From positions 1 through 64,000 of the forward strand of contig CANLII010000004.1 of the NCBI GenBank assembly GCA_947491315.1: a stretch of 64,000 nucleotides of DNA, in the 5' to 3' direction. This document shows positions 9,952 to 19,948 of this stretch, one piece after another; positions within the stretch are counted from its first letter, which is position 1; each line of letters opens with the position of its first letter. This DNA is from Ignavibacteria bacterium. GTDB taxonomy: Bacteria; Bacteroidota; Ignavibacteria; Kapaibacteriales; UBA961. The notes below the pieces were generated by a model, which was not told the origin of the DNA, did no database searches, and was given only the letters and a program-made list of their open reading frames with translations. The translations under genes were made by a program, and so were the position numbers.

Positions 9952-11088
9952 ATGGCATCGCAAAGACTTACCTTCATTGACATTTTGCGTGGAATTGCAT
10001 GTGTTTGGATGATTGAAACGCATGCTGTTAATGCATTCTTGAATGATGCTTTCACTGAGGGGATGCTCTACGGTGCATTGAAAATTAGTAATGGTTTTGT
10101 GGCCGTGATTTTTATTTTTTGCGCAGGAGCAGGTTTTAGACTAGCTCTGGAGTCGAAATTCCAAGATTATATCTCCTTTGGAACACCACTTCGGAACTAT
10201 ATCAGCCGTTTGCTTTTCATTTTGGGAATAGGGTATTCACTTCAAACGCCAATCTTTTCATTAGATTATTTGCTAGGTTCCTCACCTGAGGAATGGATGA
10301 GATTTTTGGATTCCAATGTACTCCAATTGATAGTAGTATCTTCATTTCTTGCATTGATTGGGCTATTTGTGACAAGATCTCTGAACAGAATGATCCTCTA
10401 TGCATGGCTTATGATGATCGGAGTATTTTGGCTTACGCCGATTATTTGGAGTTTTTCGAGTGAATCACTCATGCAAATCCCTGATTTCTTGAGGATATAT
10501 GTCTCAAGGCAGCCACCGGCATCATTCCCGCTTTTTCCATGGGTTGGGTATTATTTCGCGGGATATATCGCCACGCATTATTTTGTAGGTGCAAAAGACA
10601 GGAATCATGCTTCGAATATCTATCTCATTGTATCAATTGGACTTATGCTGTTTGTGTATGGCGTGAGCAGAACAGATTGGACATATTATTCGAGCGAACT
10701 GAATTGGTGGCTAGTTTCTCCCATGCATATGATGTTCAGGGTTTCAGGAGCAATGTTTCTCTTTGCTTTACTCTACAAACTGCAGGAAAAGCTCGCAGGA
10801 CCTATATCAAGAGCATTGATGGTGAATGGAAGGGAATCACTTATTGTCTATGTTGGTCAGGGCATCATTCTTTATGGAGCTGGCATGCAAGCAATCATAC
10901 GATCAATGTTCCCTGAAATCATCATGCCATGGCATATCGTTGTACTCACGATTTCTGTTATTGGGATCATGACCACATATGCATTTGTTTGGAATTCGTA
11001 TAAAAAGAGAATGCCGGTGCATGCCAAGTGGACTGTATATCTCAGCATGATCATTTATGTGCTGATTTTCGTACTAACCACGGCCTAA
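9952..11088 (+). CDS. HGSNAT/DUF1624-like membrane acyltransferase
   Basis: 378 residues, polytopic (about ten hydrophobic segments). It begins with RLTFIDILRGIACVWMIETHAV, the R-x-x-x-ID-x-LRG...H signature of the heparan-alpha-glucosaminide N-acetyltransferase catalytic family (DUF1624), and has FPLFPWVGYYFAGY in the middle, also typical of that family. Known relatives move an acetyl group across a membrane onto sugars; the acceptor here is unknown. The gene ends convergently with the asparaginase gene, overlapping by four bases. Confidence 0.75.
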   Translation: MASQRLTFIDILRGIACVWMIETHAVNAFLNDAFTEGMLYGALKISNGFVAVIFIFCAGAGFRLALESKFQDYISFGTPLRNYISRLLFILGIGYSLQTPIFSLDYLLGSSPEEWMRFLDSNVLQLIVVSSFLALIGLFVTRSLNRMILYAWLMMIGVFWLTPIIWSFSSESLMQIPDFLRIYVSRQPPASFPLFPWVGYYFAGYIATHYFVGAKDRNHASNIYLIVSIGLMLFVYGVSRTDWTYYSSELNWWLVSPMHMMFRVSGAMFLFALLYKLQEKLAGPISRALMVNGRESLIVYVGQGIILYGAGMQAIIRSMFPEIIMPWHIVVLTISVIGIMTTYAFVWNSYKKRMPVHAKWTVYLSMIIYVLIFVLTTA

Positions 11089-12077
11089 CTTAACCAAGAT
11101 TCAGGCTTTATAACTGTTCCATTCGGATGCTTTGCATCAGTCAATGAATAAGAAAACTCATTGTTTCGCATCCCAAAAGCACCTATTTCACCGTCTTTTC
11201 TCAGTGCAATGAATCCAATCTGAAGTTGTGGATGTGTTTTGGGGTGAATGTTCACAATTCTTTTGACCGCTTCCTTGCAGGCATCTTTGGGTTTCATGCC
11301 TTGCCTCATCAATTCCACGATCAAAAAACTTCCAACCACTCTGATGATTGCTTCGCCGACTCCCGTTGCTGTTGCTGCACCTATTTCATTATCAACAAAT
11401 AATCCCGGACCAATGAGTGGTGAATCACCGACTCTCCCCGGAAGTTTATAGGACAAACCGCTTGTCGTACAAGCGCCTGAGAGATTCCCACTTGAATCAA
11501 TAGCCAGCATGCCGATAGTATCATGATTTTCAGGACTAAGTGGAGGCGCTTTTTGGGATTTTTGCCAATTTCTCCACCGTTCAATCGCGTCATCGGTAAC
11601 AATGTTTTCTTTTGGAAATCCTTGAGAGATGGCGAAATCCAATGCTCCTGACCCAACCAACATCACATGAGGGGTTTTTTCCATAATTGCTCTCGCTACT
11701 GAAATTGGATGCATGATATGCTCCAAACCGGCCACTGAACCACACATGCCGCGATGATCCATAATGCATGCATCGAGGGTGAGACGGCCATCTCTGTCCA
11801 AGCTACCATTATATCCAACCGAAGTGACTTCGGGATCTGCCTCTGTTACTTTCACACCCTGCTCCACTGCATCAAGTGCTGTTGATCCATTTTGTAATAA
11901 TTCCCAGGCACGAGCATTTGCCGGAATACCAAATGGCCAAGTGGAAATCACTTTCATTGTGGAACCATCGGTGAATGGACTTGCGTTTTGTTCGAAAATC
12001 TTGGTCTTGAGTCCCGAAGTGGGAAGAGTCAATCCCAAAGCCAGGAGCATCCTTCGTGAAATTTTATCGGGCATCAT
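11085..12077 (-). CDS. N4-(beta-N-acetylglucosaminyl)-L-asparaginase (glycosylasparaginase)
   Basis: 330 residues, an Ntn-hydrolase of the isoaspartyl peptidase/glycosylasparaginase family. The autoproteolysis and nucleophile site HDTIG is present, with Thr187 expected to become the N-terminal nucleophile of the beta chain after self-cleavage. The downstream substrate motifs (GRVGDSPLIGPGLFVDN, then ATATGVGE) are the glycosylasparaginase rather than the plain asparaginase version. The N-terminus carries a twin-arginine-like signal (SRRMLLALGL), so the folded enzyme is probably exported by Tat, like the Elizabethkingia enzyme. It hydrolyses the bond between GlcNAc and Asn left by glycoprotein degradation. 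Either of two adjacent ATGs could be the start. Confidence 0.9.
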   Translation of the reverse strand: MMPDKISRRMLLALGLTLPTSGLKTKIFEQNASPFTDGSTMKVISTWPFGIPANARAWELLQNGSTALDAVEQGVKVTEADPEVTSVGYNGSLDRDGRLTLDACIMDHRGMCGSVAGLEHIMHPISVARAIMEKTPHVMLVGSGALDFAISQGFPKENIVTDDAIERWRNWQKSQKAPPLSPENHDTIGMLAIDSSGNLSGACTTSGLSYKLPGRVGDSPLIGPGLFVDNEIGAATATGVGEAIIRVVGSFLIVELMRQGMKPKDACKEAVKRIVNIHPKTHPQLQIGFIALRKDGEIGAFGMRNNEFSYSLTDAKHPNGTVIKPESWLS

Positions 12078-12090
12078 ATTGGACTCACAT

Positions 12091-12128
12091 AAAAATAGTG
12101 TCTATAAACTACGAAAATCACTATTTTT
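12091..12128. repeat. Inverted repeat between divergent genes (possible operator)
   Basis: Perfect 10-bp inverted repeat AAAAATAGTG (12091-12100) and CACTATTTTT (12119-12128) separated by 18 bases, centred between the divergent asparaginase and CADD-like genes. The right arm overlaps a TATTTTTG -7-like element. It lacks a T-run and is too far apart for a good terminator, so a regulator site or paired promoters is more likely. Confidence 0.5.
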
Positions 12129-12129
12129 G
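12122..12129 (+). promoter_or_regulatory. Candidate -7 element for the CADD-like gene
   Basis: TATTTTTG fits TAnnTTTG and lies 42 bases before ATG 12171 (15 before ATG 12144). It is embedded in the right arm of the inverted repeat. No clear -33 element. Confidence 0.4.
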
Positions 12130-12170
12130 CCCGACTAAAATTCATGCACCATTTTTCCCAGGATATAGTC

Positions 12171-12860
12171 ATGACTAATGAAGAATTTCTCGAAAAACTT
12201 GATGCCATCATTAATGAGCGTCACATGTTGCAGCATCCATTCTATCAGATGTGGAATACGGGTGATTTGACTATTCAAATGCTCCGCGAATATGCTCTTG
12301 AGTATTATCAGCAAGTGCATCATTTTCCAACATATGTGAGCGCAACTCATTCCAAGTGCGATGACATGGAAGTTCGCCAGATGTTGCTTGAAAACTTGAT
12401 TGAGGAAGAACATGGCCCGAATAATCACCCTGAACTCTGGCGTCGTTTTGGAGATGCCCTTGGTATTTCCAGAGACGAAATGATGTCTCGCAAGTATCTT
12501 CCCCACACAAAACAATCAGTGAAGATTTTAAAAGAGCTTGCCTGCAAAGAGAATGCTTCCGAGGGCTTGGCTGCTTTATATGCTTATGAATCTCAAATTC
12601 CTGAAATCTGTACAACAAAGATTGAAGGATTGAAGAATAGGTATAATCTTGACAATGAAGATGCTCTTGTGTTTTTCGAAGTGCATGAAGAAGCCGACAT
12701 TATTCACAGACAGGTCACACGCGATGCTCTCGTCCGTTTGTGTACAACTGTTGATCAAAAAATTCTTGCACTTGATGCAGCTCGTGAAGCCGCTGATGCA
12801 TTGAATCTTTTGCTTGATGGAGTCTATGAAACATATTGCGTGGATAAGCAAGCTGCTTAA
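12171..12860 (+). CDS. CADD-family diiron/heme-oxygenase-like protein, probable self-sacrificing pABA synthase
   Basis: 229 residues from ATG 12171, preferred over ATG 12144 because AGGA lies 7 bases upstream. It is an all-helical TenA/PqqC-like protein very close to Chlamydia CADD (CT610). By recall of that protein, with a constant offset of two residues, all metal ligands are kept: E79, H86, E140, H172, D176, H179. So are the tyrosine and lysine consumed or used in pABA formation (Tyr25 in HPFYQMW, Lys150 in TTKIEGL) and Tyr139 next to the metal site. CADD and Nitrosomonas NE1434 make para-aminobenzoate for folate by an oxygen-dependent, self-sacrificing reaction. The gene stands alone with its own terminator. 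Function is inferred from residue conservation. Confidence 0.85.
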   Translation: MTNEEFLEKLDAIINERHMLQHPFYQMWNTGDLTIQMLREYALEYYQQVHHFPTYVSATHSKCDDMEVRQMLLENLIEEEHGPNNHPELWRRFGDALGISRDEMMSRKYLPHTKQSVKILKELACKENASEGLAALYAYESQIPEICTTKIEGLKNRYNLDNEDALVFFEVHEEADIIHRQVTRDALVRLCTTVDQKILALDAAREAADALNLLLDGVYETYCVDKQAA

Positions 12861-12878: not shown

Positions 12879-12916
12879 AAATCCGCTTGGATCTGTTGAA
12901 TCAAGCGGATTTTTAT
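12879..12916 (+). terminator. Rho-independent terminator after the CADD-like gene
   Basis: Perfect 11-bp stem AAATCCGCTTG / CAAGCGGATTT (12879-12889 and 12902-12912), 12-base loop, followed by TT-A-TTT. Located 19 bases after the stop. Confidence 0.85.
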
Positions 12917-13043
12917 TTGAGGACATAATCTGTGAATAACTTTTGCTTCATCCTCGAATGAACTTGCTTTGATGCGAATAGAAGGTTGGTCAAGTGTCGT
13001 CTCTTTCGTATTTTTAAAGCAGTTTTTAAGCGAGAATTTCCTT

Positions 13044-13934
13044 ATGTGCAGATTTGTCGCATATCTTGGGAGTGCGATTTTGGCGGAAGACCTGCTATTC
13101 AAGCCACGGTATTCGCTGATTTCTGCTCAGAGCATCAATGCAGGAGAGATGAGTACTCAAATCAATGGCGACGGTTTCGGTATTGGTTGGTATGCACCTG
13201 ATCTCGACCCTGAACCATGCGTGTTTCGTAGCATAAAGCCGGCATGGAGTGATCAAAATCTGAGGAATCTTTCAAAGAAAATTCTAGCCCCGTCTTTATT
13301 TGCACATATTCGAGCTGCTTCGCCTGGCATGCCTGTTGAGGAGTATAATTCTCACCCATTTACCTGCGGACACTTGATGTTCATGCATAATGGAATGATT
13401 GGTGGTTTCAAGGAAATCAGAAGGTCATTATTGAGAAAATTGAATGACACGGCTTATGATGCTATTTCCGGATCGACAGATTCAGAGCACTTATTTGGTT
13501 TGATTTTGAATCATGTTGAAAATCCGAAAGCAGCGATTACCTGTGAAGAAATGATGTATGCCACTGAAAAAGGATTGCATGATTTAAGTGAGATACTGGT
13601 AGAAGCTGAAGTGAAGCAACATTCCTATATCAATATTTGCCTAACGAATGGTAAAAGTTTGATAGCGGTTCGGTATACAACGAATCATAGTGTTCAACCT
13701 GCTTCCATGTATTATATGTATGGTAAGGAATATCATTGTCGAGGCGAGCATTGTGCAATGGAGCCGAGCAATGGAAAACCTTCTACAATTGTTGTTGCTT
13801 CAGAGCCATTCACATCTAAAAGATCTGAATGGATGAAAGTGGAGCGCAATTCGATTTTGACAGTTGATGAAGAAATGCGCATCAGTTTTCGCAATGTTGA
13901 TTTGCCAATTGAGCATGTCATATCCGAAGCATGA
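13044..13934 (+). CDS. Class II glutamine amidotransferase (EgtC/YafJ-like)
   Basis: 296 residues beginning MCRFVAYLG: the start at 13044 is fixed by Cys2, which becomes the N-terminal nucleophile of class II (Ntn) amidotransferases; the longer open frame upstream would bury it. Other landmarks are NGDGFGIGWY (about 39-48), the LFAHIRAAS segment and FMHNGMIGGF. Such stand-alone domains hydrolyse glutamine or gamma-glutamyl amides; EgtC acts in ergothioneine synthesis, but no egt genes are nearby, so the substrate is open. It lies about 40 bases before nuoL on the same strand. Confidence 0.85.
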   Translation: MCRFVAYLGSAILAEDLLFKPRYSLISAQSINAGEMSTQINGDGFGIGWYAPDLDPEPCVFRSIKPAWSDQNLRNLSKKILAPSLFAHIRAASPGMPVEEYNSHPFTCGHLMFMHNGMIGGFKEIRRSLLRKLNDTAYDAISGSTDSEHLFGLILNHVENPKAAITCEEMMYATEKGLHDLSEILVEAEVKQHSYINICLTNGKSLIAVRYTTNHSVQPASMYYMYGKEYHCRGEHCAMEPSNGKPSTIVVASEPFTSKRSEWMKVERNSILTVDEEMRISFRNVDLPIEHVISEA

Positions 13935-13977
13935 TGAATCTATTCACCTTTGACCACATTACTATTAAGTGTTTTAT

Positions 13978-15936
13978 ATGGCTGAGTTGATCTACCTCGT
14001 TCCTCTCCTTCCTCTTATTGGTTTTTTTATTATTGGTTTTTTTGGTAAAAAACTTCATAATGAAAAGCTTATTGGAGGTATTGCAAGTGCTGCCGTGGGT
14101 GGTGCATTTTTGGTTGCAGTGGGTATTTTTATGCAATTGCTTGGTGAGGCACCAGAAGCGCGTACACATATCATTCGATTATTTCCATGGATTCATACCG
14201 GCGCATTGTCGATTGACATTGCATATCAGGTAGATCAATTATCCATACTCTATACCCTCATCATCACTGGAATCGGTACGCTGATTCACATTTATTCCAT
14301 TGGATATATGCATGGTGACAAGAGTTTTCCGCGATTTTTTGCCTATTTGAATTTATTCGTGTTCATGATGCTCAATCTGGTACTTGCCAACAATTTTGTG
14401 TTGACATTTCTTGGTTGGGAAGGCGTGGGCTTATGTTCCTATCTCCTCATTGGTTTTTGGTATGATAGAACATTCGAAGGTTCTCACATTGTATGGACAG
14501 GCGATGCTGCAAAGAAAGCGTTTATTGTGAATCGAATTGGTGATTTTGGTGTATTGATCGCGATGTTCCTCATCTTCTGGAGATTTGGTTCATTGGATTA
14601 TGCAACTGTGAATACAATGGCTGCCACACAAGGCGTTGATGCTGGACTCATCACAGCAATCACATTATTGCTTTTCTTGGGTTGTACTGGTAAATCCGCA
14701 CAGATTCCACTTGGTGTATGGCTTCCGGATGCGATGGCGGGTCCAACACCCGTATCTGCATTGATTCATGCGGCAACGATGGTGACTGCCGGGATATTCT
14801 TAATTGCAAGAAATTCAACTCTTTTTGCTTTATCACATACAACCATGGCAGTGATTACCGGAGTTGGTATTACAACAGCATTGATTGCGGCAACTGTGGG
14901 TATTGTTCAAAATGACATTAAAAAAGTTTTGGCATATTCAACGGTAAGTCAGCTTGGCTTCATGTTCATAGCATTGGGAGTTGGAGCGTATACTGCAGCT
15001 GTATTCCATGTGATGACCCATGCCTTCTTCAAAGCATTGCTTTTCTTGGGCTCAGGTTCAGTGATTCATGGCATGCATGAAGAACAAGATATTCAAAAGA
15101 TGGGTGGTTTGAAGAAATACATGCCCCAAACGTATATTACCTTCTTGCTTGGTACGATTGCAATTGCGGGTATTTTTCCATTTGCAGGATTTTTCTCAAA
15201 GGATGAAATCTTGTGGTATGCATTCCTTAATGGAAGTCCGATTCTCTGGGGAGCAGGCGTACTTGCTGCTTTGTTCACTGCATTTTATATGTTCAGATTG
15301 CTCTATCTCACATTCCATGGGGAGGAGCGTTTTGATCATCATCATGTGCATCCTCATGAGTCTCCGGCAACAATGACTATTCCATTGTGGATTTTAGCAA
15401 TCCTTTCAGTCTTTGGTGGATTCCTCGGCATACCCAAAGCATTGTCATTTGGTGCGGATATTAATTTACTCGAGCATTGGTTGCATCCAATTTTCCACGA
15501 TGCGCATGAAATCCTTGCAAAGAGTCATGGCGAGCATGCACATTCACTTGAACTTGAATGGGGCTTAATGGCCGGTTCCTTGGGAATTGCAGTCATTGGC
15601 ATTCTTTTCGCAACTTCATTGTATAAGAAATCTTCTTCCAAGCCGGATGAACTTGCGGCAAAAAATAAAGGACTATATTCATTGCTTTGGAATAAATATT
15701 GGGTTGATGAAATATATCATGCAGTTATAGTTCGTCCTACATATACAATGTCACTCGAAGCTCTTTGGAAGATTTTCGACATAAAAGTAATCGATGGTAT
15801 TGTGAATGGTAGTGCTCGATCAATTGCTACATGGGCAGAATCAATCAGAAAAATTCAATCGGGCATTGCGCAGAATTATGCACTGCTCATGATGATTGGA
15901 ATTGTTGGTATCATAGCATGGATGGTTCTTGGATGA
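13978..15936 (+). CDS. nuoL: NADH-quinone oxidoreductase subunit L
   Basis: 652 residues, about 16 transmembrane helices, antiporter-like subunit of respiratory complex I. Visible landmarks: LGWEGVGLCSYLLIGFW (about 142-158), the LFLGCTGKSAQIPLGVWLPDAMAGPTPVSALIHAATMVTAG block with its key lysine and histidines, and the KDIKKVLAYSTVSQLG-type motif. The lateral helix region and last TM helix are present (NKYWVDEIYHAVIVRPTYTM). ATG 13978 is preferred over an in-frame GTG at 13969. First gene of the L-(DUF420)-M-(small ORF)-N cluster; its stop overlaps the next ATG (ATGATGA). Confidence 0.96.
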   Translation: MAELIYLVPLLPLIGFFIIGFFGKKLHNEKLIGGIASAAVGGAFLVAVGIFMQLLGEAPEARTHIIRLFPWIHTGALSIDIAYQVDQLSILYTLIITGIGTLIHIYSIGYMHGDKSFPRFFAYLNLFVFMMLNLVLANNFVLTFLGWEGVGLCSYLLIGFWYDRTFEGSHIVWTGDAAKKAFIVNRIGDFGVLIAMFLIFWRFGSLDYATVNTMAATQGVDAGLITAITLLLFLGCTGKSAQIPLGVWLPDAMAGPTPVSALIHAATMVTAGIFLIARNSTLFALSHTTMAVITGVGITTALIAATVGIVQNDIKKVLAYSTVSQLGFMFIALGVGAYTAAVFHVMTHAFFKALLFLGSGSVIHGMHEEQDIQKMGGLKKYMPQTYITFLLGTIAIAGIFPFAGFFSKDEILWYAFLNGSPILWGAGVLAALFTAFYMFRLLYLTFHGEERFDHHHVHPHESPATMTIPLWILAILSVFGGFLGIPKALSFGADINLLEHWLHPIFHDAHEILAKSHGEHAHSLELEWGLMAGSLGIAVIGILFATSLYKKSSSKPDELAAKNKGLYSLLWNKYWVDEIYHAVIVRPTYTMSLEALWKIFDIKVIDGIVNGSARSIATWAESIRKIQSGIAQNYALLMMIGIVGIIAWMVLG

Positions 15937-16517
15937 TGAAAACTTCTCAATCAAATGTAGTAGGCAGTGATAAGCTCAAATCGCTTAGTGAACGCACAAT
16001 GTCACTCCTTGTGTATTCAGTGTCAATCATCGTAGTATTGCTTGTTGCTTTCATGTTATATGTACCGCAAGCAATCTCGATTGACGGAATAAATGTCATG
16101 GTACTTCCCAAGTTAAACGCATTTATCAATTCGGCTTGCACGGTACTTCTTTCACTTGGGTATTATTTTATACGCAAAAAGAATATTGCCGCGCATCGCA
16201 TGATGATGATGAGTGCATTTGGTTTGTCTTTGCTGTTTTTATTGTCTTATGTGACTTATCATTCTTCTGCTCCTTCAACGACATTTGGGGGTGAGGGAAT
16301 CATACGATTGGTCTATTTCACGATTTTGATTACACACATAGTATTGGCTGCAGTCATTGTACCACTTGCATTGTTTACCCTGCTTCGAGCTTGGAGGTCG
16401 GAATTCTCATTGCACAAGAAAATTGCTCGTTGGACATTGCCTGTTTGGCTATATGTCACGATTACTGGTGTGATCGTATATCTCATGATTTCACCGTATT
16501 ATACGATGGGACAGTAA
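15933..16517 (+). CDS. DUF420 membrane protein (CtaM-like) inside the nuo cluster
   Basis: 194 residues with five hydrophobic segments and the DUF420 pattern: PKLNAFINSACTVLLSLGYYFIRKKNIAAHRMMMMSAF, then a TYHSSAPSTTFGG loop and a C-terminal HKKIARWTLPVWLYVTITGVIVYLM. DUF420 proteins (CtaM) assist assembly of heme-copper oxidases and are normally found with cytochrome oxidase genes. Here the gene overlaps the nuoL stop (ATGATGA) and precedes nuoM, so it is co-translated with complex I subunits. Histidines in helices could bind heme or copper; not provable from sequence. Confidence 0.82.
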   Translation: MMKTSQSNVVGSDKLKSLSERTMSLLVYSVSIIVVLLVAFMLYVPQAISIDGINVMVLPKLNAFINSACTVLLSLGYYFIRKKNIAAHRMMMMSAFGLSLLFLLSYVTYHSSAPSTTFGGEGIIRLVYFTILITHIVLAAVIVPLALFTLLRAWRSEFSLHKKIARWTLPVWLYVTITGVIVYLMISPYYTMGQ

Positions 16518-16592
16518 GCGCTGTCTTTCTCATTTAATTCATGTGCCTTTTGGCATTTATGTTCATCTTTTGTCAGTTCTACAGAGTAAAGC

Positions 16593-18185
16593 ATGCCACA
16601 TACTGATTCAGCAGGTTTGCTGTTATTGCCTTTGTTCTTGCCATTATTGGGATTTCTCTCAATACTTTTTATTGACAGAGAGCAAGAGAAGGCAATCAAA
16701 TATGTCACATTGATATTCTCGATGCTCACATTCTTTGCATCTCTTCCATTGTGGTTTATGTTCAATGATGGATTGGATGGTTTTCAATTTTATACGAATA
16801 TCTCTTGGATTCCATCGCTCGATGCAGGTTTCAGAACCGGTATTGACGGCATGTCATTATTGCTGGTCTTGCTTACGACATTCATCATGCCAATCAGCAT
16901 TCTTTCTTCTTTTGAATCAATAAAAAAGAAACATAAAGAGTATTATGCGATGCTGCTGCTGTTGGAATTTGGAATGCTTGGAGTGTTTGTTTCTCTTGAT
17001 ACCATGCTCTTTTATGTATTCTGGGAATTGATTCTCATACCGATGTATTTTTTGATTGGTATTTGGGGTGGGAAAGACAGAATATATGCTGCTGTGAAAT
17101 TCTTCCTTTATACTCTTGTTGGTTCATTATTGATGCTTATTGCGATCGTGTGGATGGGACTGTATGCAAAGTGGTTGCCAGGTGGACATTTCACAACTGA
17201 CTTCTTGATTTTGAAACAGCTTGCACCTGGAATTCCACTTGATATTCAAATCTGGTTATTCCTAGCTTTTGCATTGTCATTCTGTATCAAGGTTCCATTA
17301 TTTCCATTTCATACATGGCTTCCTGATGCTCACGTTCAAGCGCCAACTGCAGGTTCAGTGATTCTTGCCGGTGTATTGCTCAAGATGGGTACTTATGGTT
17401 TGATTAGATTCAATCTTGAATTATTCCCTCAGTCATTACATCTGTTTGCGCAGCCGCTTGCATGGTTATCCGTGATTGGCATCATCTATGGTGCGCTTGT
17501 AGCGATGGTTCAAACAGATATCAAAAAGCTTGTAGCATATTCATCTGTTAGCCACTTGGGTTTTGTTGTATTGGGTATTGTGTCCGTCACTCCCGAAGGT
17601 CTTCAAGGCGCAATCATCCAAATGGTGAATCATGGTTTGTCAACCGGTATGCTGTTCCTTTGTGTAGGCGTATTATATGAGCGTCGTCATACTCGTGAGA
17701 TTTCTGAATTTGGTGGAATAACCAAAGTGATGCCCAAATTTGCAGTGATGTTCACTATTGCAATGATGGCATCGGTTGGACTTCCCGGATTAAATGGCTT
17801 TATTGGTGAATACCTCACTCTGTTTGGATCTTTCCAATCCAAATTTTTGAATAATCCATGGTTTAGCATATTCAGTGCATCTGGTGTGATTTTCGCGGCT
17901 GTCTATCTATTGTGGATGTTCCAACGCGTGATGTTTGGAACCAATGACAATCCGAAGAATCATACATTGACAGATTTGACTAGAAGCGAATATTGGCAAT
18001 TGGTACCATTGGTAATTTTCATTGTGTGGATTGGAGTCTATCCAAAAACATTTCTCTCCCGCTCTGAGTTATATGCCCAAACATTGGTTGGATCCATTGA
18101 AAAAACTGTGTTCGGCACATCCGCATATCCAAAAATCAAAGCAATTGAAGTGGATGCATCTGCCGTAAAGAAAGCAGGGCATTGA
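16593..18185 (+). CDS. nuoM: NADH-quinone oxidoreductase subunit M
   Basis: 530 residues, about 14 transmembrane helices, second antiporter-like subunit of complex I. Landmarks: FRTGIDGMSLLLVLLTTF (about 84-101), FWELILIPMYFLIGIWGG with its conserved Glu, KVPLFPFHTWLPDAHVQAPTAGSVILAGVLLKMGTYG, and TDIKKLVAYSSVSHLG. It follows the DUF420 gene after 75 bases with no visible terminator. Confidence 0.96.
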   Translation: MPHTDSAGLLLLPLFLPLLGFLSILFIDREQEKAIKYVTLIFSMLTFFASLPLWFMFNDGLDGFQFYTNISWIPSLDAGFRTGIDGMSLLLVLLTTFIMPISILSSFESIKKKHKEYYAMLLLLEFGMLGVFVSLDTMLFYVFWELILIPMYFLIGIWGGKDRIYAAVKFFLYTLVGSLLMLIAIVWMGLYAKWLPGGHFTTDFLILKQLAPGIPLDIQIWLFLAFALSFCIKVPLFPFHTWLPDAHVQAPTAGSVILAGVLLKMGTYGLIRFNLELFPQSLHLFAQPLAWLSVIGIIYGALVAMVQTDIKKLVAYSSVSHLGFVVLGIVSVTPEGLQGAIIQMVNHGLSTGMLFLCVGVLYERRHTREISEFGGITKVMPKFAVMFTIAMMASVGLPGLNGFIGEYLTLFGSFQSKFLNNPWFSIFSASGVIFAAVYLLWMFQRVMFGTNDNPKNHTLTDLTRSEYWQLVPLVIFIVWIGVYPKTFLSRSELYAQTLVGSIEKTVFGTSAYPKIKAIEVDASAVKKAGH

Positions 18186-18209
18186 TTAGTATCATTGAGG
18201 AAATCTACG

Positions 18210-18470
18210 ATGGCGAATTTTTTAAAGAAGATTTTTGAAAAACCATATGATTGGAAGAAGAATGGGCATGACACCACCGATCAATGGAAATCAGTTCGAG
18301 TCGGTGATACTGTTGAGTTTGCCATGACAGTTACCGAAGAAGTATTATACAGCGTTGAAACATTGTATCCTGAGACTTCAGAAGCAACAATCAAGCGCAA
18401 AACAATGGATGACTCACAAGGTGAGACATATCGTGTCGGTTTGGTGATGCTTCGTCCAGTGAAAGCATAA
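18210..18470 (+). CDS. Small conserved-looking protein between nuoM and nuoN, unknown
   Basis: 86 residues from ATG 18210 (GAGGA 8-12 bases upstream), soluble, charged, with a basic N-terminal half (FLKKIFEKPYDWKKNG) and a beta-like second half (VRVGDTVEFAMTVTEEV). No transmembrane helix or metal motif. It sits 24 bases after nuoM and 41 bases before nuoN in a tight co-directional run, so it is very likely part of the complex I transcript. It is not one of the canonical Nuo subunits (NuoK and NuoJ are membrane proteins). Function unknown; an assembly factor or accessory subunit is a guess. Confidence 0.6.
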   Translation: MANFLKKIFEKPYDWKKNGHDTTDQWKSVRVGDTVEFAMTVTEEVLYSVETLYPETSEATIKRKTMDDSQGETYRVGLVMLRPVKA

Positions 18471-18511
18471 TCATCCAATCATTACAGAGAATATAACCAA
18501 GGAATAGAGGA

Positions 18512-19948
18512 ATGATTCAAGATTTACTGTTGACCGCTCCATTCACATTCTTGTCTGCAATGGCCATCATTGCGATGGTTGTGGATGCTTTGATCAAGAA
18601 TAGCGCTCGCATCACTTTCTTGTTCAGTGTGATCACATTGATTGTTTCGGGCATTTTGGCCATTGGAACATTTGGTCATCACGGCATTGGTTTCAATGGT
18701 ATGATTTCCGGTGGAGGATTCTCATCATATTTTGATGTTTTATTCTCTGTGGGAGGACTTCTCACCATTTTTGCCGCCCGCTCATATTTGCAAAAAGAGG
18801 GAATTGAGCATGATGAGTTCTACTCGCTCATACTATTTGCGATTGGCGGAATGATGCTTATTGGACATTCAAATAATCTTCTGACGCTGTTCATAGGTAT
18901 TGAAATCATGTCAGTCGTATTTTATATCCTTTCCGGATATATGCGTTCTTCCATTGCTTCTGTTGAGGCATCCTTGAAGTATTTCCTTCTTGGAGCATTC
19001 TCGACAGGATTTTTGGTTTATGGGATGGCATTGATTTATGGTGCCACGGGAAGCATGGATTATGGTCATATATCCATGAATATTTCTCGAGGTGCATTGC
19101 CATTGGGATCATTGCTTCCGATTGGCATTGCCCTGATGGTCATCGGTTTGAGTTTCAAGGCGGCAGCATTCCCATTCCATCAATGGGCACCTGATGTGTA
19201 TCAAGGTGCTCCAACTATCGTAACGGCATTTATGAGTACAGCAGGAAAGGCGGCTGCATTTGTTGCATTTATGCCGATTGTAATGGTACTCATGCCTGCA
19301 GCTCCTGCGAAACTACAAATGACATTTGCTGTTTTGTCGGCAGCAACAATGTTGATTGGAAATATCAGTGCACTCGCACAAACGAATATCAAGCGCATGC
19401 TCGCATTCTCATCTGTTGCACATGCTGGATATTTGATGATGGGCTTGGTATCAGGTTCTCAAGCAGGTTACAGTGGAATCTTGTTCTATCTCACTTCCTA
19501 TATGTTCATGCAAATTGGTTCATTCATCATCGTAGGTTTGCTTGAGCGACGTGGTGAAGAGCATTTACAGATTTCAGATTATGCAGGTTTGAGTAAAAAG
19601 TATCCTGTACTCGCGGCATTCATGTCTATTTTTATGTTTTCATTGGCCGGAATTCCTCCTTTTGCGGGATTCTTTGGTAAATATTATCTCTTTTCAGCAG
19701 CGATTGATGCAGGATTCTTGTGGCTTACAATTATTGCTGTTTTCTCATCGATTGTCTCAGTGTATTTCTATATCGGACTCATTGTTAAAATGTATTTCAA
19801 TGAACCTGAGAAGGAAATGCCTGACACTGAATTTGGTCTCTCCAGAATTTCTCTGTTCATCACAATTGCCGGCGTCATTCTTCTTGGCATTATGCCTTCC
19901 GGAATTTTGTCCATCGCTCATGCGATTTTCGGTCATTCAACTCATTGA
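18512..19948 (+). CDS. nuoN: NADH-quinone oxidoreductase subunit N
   Basis: 478 residues, about 14 transmembrane helices, third antiporter-like subunit of complex I. Landmarks: LFIGIEIMSVVFYILSGYMRSSIASVEASLKYFLLGAFSTGFLVYG, FKAAAFPFHQWAPDVYQGAPTIVTAFMSTAGKAAAF and TNIKRMLAFSSVAHAGYLMMG. AAGGA lies 8 bases before the ATG. The aminotransferase gene follows after 23 bases without a terminator. Confidence 0.96.
   Translation: MIQDLLLTAPFTFLSAMAIIAMVVDALIKNSARITFLFSVITLIVSGILAIGTFGHHGIGFNGMISGGGFSSYFDVLFSVGGLLTIFAARSYLQKEGIEHDEFYSLILFAIGGMMLIGHSNNLLTLFIGIEIMSVVFYILSGYMRSSIASVEASLKYFLLGAFSTGFLVYGMALIYGATGSMDYGHISMNISRGALPLGSLLPIGIALMVIGLSFKAAAFPFHQWAPDVYQGAPTIVTAFMSTAGKAAAFVAFMPIVMVLMPAAPAKLQMTFAVLSAATMLIGNISALAQTNIKRMLAFSSVAHAGYLMMGLVSGSQAGYSGILFYLTSYMFMQIGSFIIVGLLERRGEEHLQISDYAGLSKKYPVLAAFMSIFMFSLAGIPPFAGFFGKYYLFSAAIDAGFLWLTIIAVFSSIVSVYFYIGLIVKMYFNEPEKEMPDTEFGLSRISLFITIAGVILLGIMPSGILSIAHAIFGHSTH

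Follow-up and report, generated by a model that had tools for sequence, protein, structure and literature searches.

How can a bacterium make folate if it has no recognizable route from chorismate to p-aminobenzoate (pABA)? The question is raised by one gene in a 64,000-nucleotide stretch of DNA (hereafter, the window) from a Kapabacterial genome (FCB group) of 2.30 Mb, which is assembled in 49 contigs and 100% complete. Its named relatives are 'Ignavibacteria bacterium UBA961' (97% identical), 'Candidatus Kapaibacterium' (96%) and OPB56 (86%). From sequence and genome searches we obtained the family of the encoded protein, its predicted fold, its residues, the presence or absence of pathway genes and the distribution of the family across the order. 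The gene and its immediate surroundings are as follows:

11085-12077, minus strand: asparaginase-2/beta-aspartyl-peptidase-like gene, divergent neighbour of the CADD gene
12078-12170, no strand: divergent intergenic region of 93 bp between the asparaginase-like gene and the CADD gene, with AGGA before 12171
12171-12860, plus strand: gene for a CADD-family protein of 229 aa, very probably a self-sacrificing p-aminobenzoate synthase (TIGR04305 at 282 bits, PDB 1rcw/9pj4, residue table, fold match)
about 12880-12914, plus strand: intrinsic terminator-like hairpin with an 11-bp stem (AAATCCGCTTG/CAAGCGGATTT), then a T-rich tract (MFE -21.6, z -3.5)
12969-13934, plus strand: class-II glutamine amidotransferase (EgtC/YafJ-like), directly downstream of the CADD gene

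The open reading frame at 12171-12860 is translated into 229 residues. An alternative in-frame ATG is present at 12144, but the similarity of relatives begins only at 12171, and the sequence preceding this start contains the AGGA ribosome-binding site. The protein scores 282.4 bits against TIGR04305 ('CADD family putative folate metabolism protein'), for which the curated cut-off is 200. In contrast, it falls well short of the cut-offs of the PqqC (TIGR02111; 67 versus 240 bits), BesC (48 versus 500) and TenA (26 versus 130) models. When the PDB was searched with phmmer, the best match was 9pj4, annotated as '4-aminobenzoate synthase' (7e-53), with Chlamydia CT610 (1rcw; 4e-49) and 8va9 (9e-49) among the further matches. 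Identity to CT610 is ~39%. The AlphaFold2 model, built with an input of 32 natural sequences, has a mean pLDDT of 95.3 and is predicted to be a heme-oxygenase-like helical bundle. Its top fold match is CT610 itself (1rcw; rmsd 1.4 Å, TM 0.88-0.95), followed by PqqC at 3.8 Å. The preliminary description had called the protein a CADD homologue, and the family score, the gapless CT610 alignment and the fold match all bear this out. The genome contains a second, weak CADD match (C10, 23 bits), which we rejected as a candidate: its sacrificial Lys is missing, as are most of the accessory residues, and it resembles a remote member of the heme-oxygenase-like dimetal oxidase (HDO) superfamily.

The alignment with CT610 runs without gaps and with an offset of two residues from residue 5 to beyond residue 179, so that it covers all positions for which equivalence had been proposed. 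Metal ligands E79, H86, E140, H172, D176 and H179 correspond to E81, H88, E142, H174, D178 and H181 of CT610, which makes a complete set of three His and three carboxylates. The sacrificial Tyr25 corresponds to Y27 of CT610 and Y25 of the Nitrosomonas enzyme NePabS, the amine-donor Lys150 to K152 and K159, respectively, and Y139 to Y141 of CT610. Every ligand, Tyr25, Tyr139 and Lys150 were thus found in the equivalent place, just as the preliminary description had mapped them. Accessory aromatics Y41, Y45 and W90 are likewise present, as equivalents of Y41, Y45 and W99 in the Nitrosomonas enzyme, where mutagenesis has shown them to be essential or helpful (PMC11965152). Catalytic residues are retained in nearly all loci of the order and in 86 of 89 further loci. 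Tyr25 and Lys150 are nearly invariant, although they are not metal ligands.

One difference from CADD, absent from the preliminary description, is the replacement of Tyr170 by Phe168. Tyr170 is a metal-selectivity residue of CADD, and the aromatic pair beside the metals is Tyr141/Tyr170 in the Mn/Fe enzyme CADD and Phe148/Phe177 in NePabS, which uses Fe/Fe (PMC11965152). The F148Y change alone leaves NePabS functioning similarly with Fe/Fe and Mn/Fe, whereas changing Phe177 alone makes it prefer Mn/Fe (PMC11965152). The pair in the window protein, Tyr139/Phe168, matches that of the cambialistic F148Y variant and is shared by nearly all other Kapabacterial and cyanobacterial proteins examined. 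By analogy with this variant, we predict that the pair would let the enzyme use either Fe/Fe or Mn/Fe.

Does the genome have another way to make pABA? A family search for chorismate-binding proteins (PF00425) returned none in the whole genome, while the same search was positive in 14 of 14 control genomes; PabB, TrpE and MenF are therefore absent. The sole class-IV aminotransferase (PF01063) is the branched-chain transaminase IlvE (431 versus 279 bits), so PabC is absent as well. PabA has no role in pABA formation without PabB. FolP and FolK are both present, that is, the step that uses pABA is retained while PabB and PabC are missing. The proposal that pABA is made here outside the standard Pab route agrees with this gene content. 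The family search for chorismate synthase (aroC) did not find it in the genome either, and the sole match to EPSP synthase (aroA) has the strength of MurA (66 bits against a cut-off of 287). We read such aroA matches in shikimate-less genomes as MurA, since matches of ~57-90 bits occur in nearly every genome and true aroA scores far higher. The genome thus has no recognizable chorismate-based pathway to aromatic amino acids, which fits with pABA being derived from tyrosine, and folate synthesis appears to be uncoupled from the shikimate pathway.

We consider it very likely that the product of the gene is a pABA synthase of the HDO superfamily that sacrifices itself in a single turnover and feeds folate synthesis without chorismate. 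The reaction, its stoichiometry and the radical relay are carried over by analogy from the biochemistry of the Chlamydia and Nitrosomonas enzymes. In CADD and NePabS, the radical is transferred over about 14 Å, the carboxylate is derived from O2 and the amine from Lys (PMC11965152; PMC13108848). In the window protein, O2 would react at the dimetal site held by E79/H86/E140/H172/D176/H179, and the radical would be relayed to Tyr25 via aromatic residues, for which Tyr139, Tyr45, Tyr41 and Trp90 are candidates. The side chain of Tyr25 would be cleaved, with Gly left behind, oxidized to an O2-derived carboxylate and aminated by Lys150; Lys150 would become aminoadipate and pABA would be released. 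FolP could then couple pABA to the pterin that FolK supplies. Tyrosine imported from the surroundings and translated as Tyr25 would be the origin of the aromatic ring of pABA, and chorismate would be unnecessary for this reason, provided that tyrosine is imported. Tyrosine uptake by the organism is what we infer from the missing genes.

The neighbourhood has features that both extend and modify what had been claimed for the locus. The gene was said to stand alone with its own terminator. There is indeed a strong hairpin 3' of the gene, and a consensus terminator scanner gave no match for it at 12880-12914 because its loop is too long for the scanner. However, the isolation of the gene does not hold in related families, where the amidotransferase lies a few bases downstream. 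A class-II amidotransferase follows CADD in 34 of the 53 order loci (52 named loci and the window), in many of them only a few bases away, and where the distance is this short the two genes are probably one operon. In the window, the true start of the amidotransferase is probably near 13045 (MCRFVAY). A divergent regulatory region had been proposed as well; the divergent gap does exist, but it yielded no promoter-like match, and no Rfam family, the folate riboswitch included, was matched anywhere in the window. The asparaginase-like neighbour is probably unrelated to CADD. Clustering of CADD with folate genes is seen in Chlamydia and Wolbachia and is not defining; neither folP nor folK was found near CADD in the window or in the flanks (~6 kb on each side where the contig allows) of about 100 loci. 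As a separate observation, genes for subunits of Complex I, nuoL among them, occupy positions 13969-19948 of the window, in a genome without chorismate synthase.

The ClpS protease adaptor (PF02617) is encoded immediately upstream of CADD and divergently from it in 33 of the 53 order loci (for example, L072:5676-5993(-) and L074:7176-7475(+)), across families that share few other neighbours. ClpS was found beside CADD in none of 28 cyanobacterial or other later loci, and in none from the genus to which the window belongs. Adjacency of ClpS to a single-use enzyme that must be cleared is suggestive at the level of linkage.

Within the order, aroC is missing in 41 of 61 genomes, and of these 38 have a CADD-family gene and 40 have FolP. 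The absence of both chorismate synthase and EPSP synthase extends across the family of the source genome and several other families, well beyond the preliminary description. We considered assembly gaps as the cause of the missing genes and rejected them, as whole genera agree and so do three single-contig genomes (G016, G023 and G049), in which CADD, FolP and FolK are present, and aroC and PF00425 absent. PF00425 proteins occur in 18 of the 61 genomes. Among the copies classified, PabB was recognized in G022, G031, G036, G043 and G057, and the rest are isochorismate synthase or TrpE. Genomes G031, G043 and G057 are without CADD; G022 is the only PabB genome that also has an intact one. In G036, the CADD protein (L080:1664-2350) has Tyr25, Tyr41 and Lys150 all replaced by Phe, and PabB is found in the same bin. 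The tree places this protein within the intact clade of family f9, on a branch whose length is several times that of its neighbours. Such a branch is as expected if PabB made CADD dispensable, with the caveat that G036 is a fragmented bin in which mixing is possible. Among FolP genomes, intact CADD and PabB tend toward mutual exclusion (1, 43, 4, 5; Fisher p = 0.002), where shared ancestry inflates the significance and residues were inspected in part of the CADDs.

The order also contains exceptions. Three shikimate-less, FolP-bearing relatives have no CADD (G039, G048 and G013, the last at 82% completeness), and pABA uptake must therefore be possible somewhere in the order. Genomes of genus g11 in family f8 (G020, G041, G046, G051 and G059) have CADD above the cut-off and neither FolP nor FolK. 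Families f3 and f5 have short divergent CADD-like proteins (L081, L082, L083, L084 and L085; 72-82 bits to TIGR04305), in which Tyr25 and Lys150 are retained and the aromatic pair is Phe139/Tyr168, the Mn/Fe-preferring combination. In the CADD of G034 (L086), metal ligand Glu140 is replaced by Lys and there is an insertion ahead of the Asp176 position; this may be a copy that is decaying or has been altered. Across 247 genomes drawn evenly from the phylum, the only CADDs above the cut-off were those of this order and of two genomes from a single further family in the class.

These exceptions bear on two other ways of reading the gene. PqqC, BesC, UndA and TenA have the same scaffold in common and act on free substrates, and the window protein could be another such HDO, with pABA imported from the surroundings. 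Import would agree with the three shikimate-less FolP relatives, which are without PabB as well as without CADD, and the persistence of CADD in the g11 genomes, which are without FolP and FolK, also speaks for this reading. Nevertheless, we regard a PqqC-, BesC-, UndA- or TenA-like activity as highly improbable: the protein scores far too low with the PqqC, BesC and TenA models, and sacrificial chemistry explains the near-invariance of Tyr25 and Lys150, both of which are lost in G036, where PabB occurs.

It might also be argued that the protein does make pABA, while the community supplies most of the pABA or folate and CADD contributes little, or only conditionally, depending on oxygen. A single turnover is costly, as one protein is spent per pABA, the genome already relies on others for aromatic amino acids, and some relatives live without CADD or PabB. 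Yet CADD and FolP/FolK are retained together in nearly all shikimate-less relatives, single-contig genomes among them, and the residues are strongly conserved, so we judge such a subordinate role unlikely.

If the gene is indeed a self-sacrificing pABA synthase, a CADD-type enzyme is the apparent standing pABA route throughout most of a lineage that is not known to associate with hosts, in genomes where no way to chorismate can be recognized. Folate synthesis would then be independent of the shikimate pathway in bacteria that are not intracellular, and the use of external tyrosine in place of chorismate would explain why such a costly sacrificial enzyme is kept. A broader scenario may be drawn, in which an environmental order, most of whose families have lost the shikimate pathway, is self-sufficient in folate through a suicide enzyme converting external tyrosine to pABA, with ClpS helping to remove the spent protein in several families; we put it forward tentatively, as rather unlikely in its entirety. 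Natural variants within the order (the Tyr/Phe and Phe/Tyr pairs, and G036 with its sacrificial residues gone beside PabB) make the models of metal selection and of sacrifice testable. This type of enzyme and its residues are already in the literature, as is a free-living carrier, characterized in Nitrosomonas (PMC11965152), whereas the metabolic setting in Kapabacteria is new. For related hot-spring bacteria, an inability to synthesize aromatic amino acids has been suggested on the basis of partial genomes (PMC6338057). In the open literature, with few subscription papers covered, we found no paper linking CADD, chorismate loss and Kapabacteria.

Compared with known systems, the window protein is closest in predicted fold to CADD of Chlamydia trachomatis (CT610; 1rcw, 8va9), with which it also shares the ligands, the sacrificial Tyr/Lys and the Tyr at the Y141 position. 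It differs from CT610 in having Phe168 instead of Y170. Its loci have no folate cluster, and Kapabacteria, unlike Chlamydia, are not known as host-adapted, judging by habitats inferred from record titles. With NePabS (NE1434) of Nitrosomonas europaea, it shares Phe at the second aromatic position, the equivalents of Y25, Y41, Y45, W99 and K159 and a free-living carrier, but NePabS has Phe148 where the window protein has Tyr139 (PMC11965152). Structure 9pj4 has an insertion of 9 residues after residue 60 compared with the window protein, and the numbering of NePabS implies the same insertion. The HDO/TenA-like scaffold is common to PqqC, BesC, UndA and TenA, while the window protein stays far below the model cut-offs of PqqC, BesC and TenA. 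Finally, the TIGR04305 locus 'frC' of Rickettsia is likewise a CADD-family gene found where chorismate synthesis and PabABC are missing; however, it is reported to be degraded in almost all of these intracellular bacteria (PMC5615194), whereas the Kapabacterial gene is intact in the greater part of an order of environmental bacteria.
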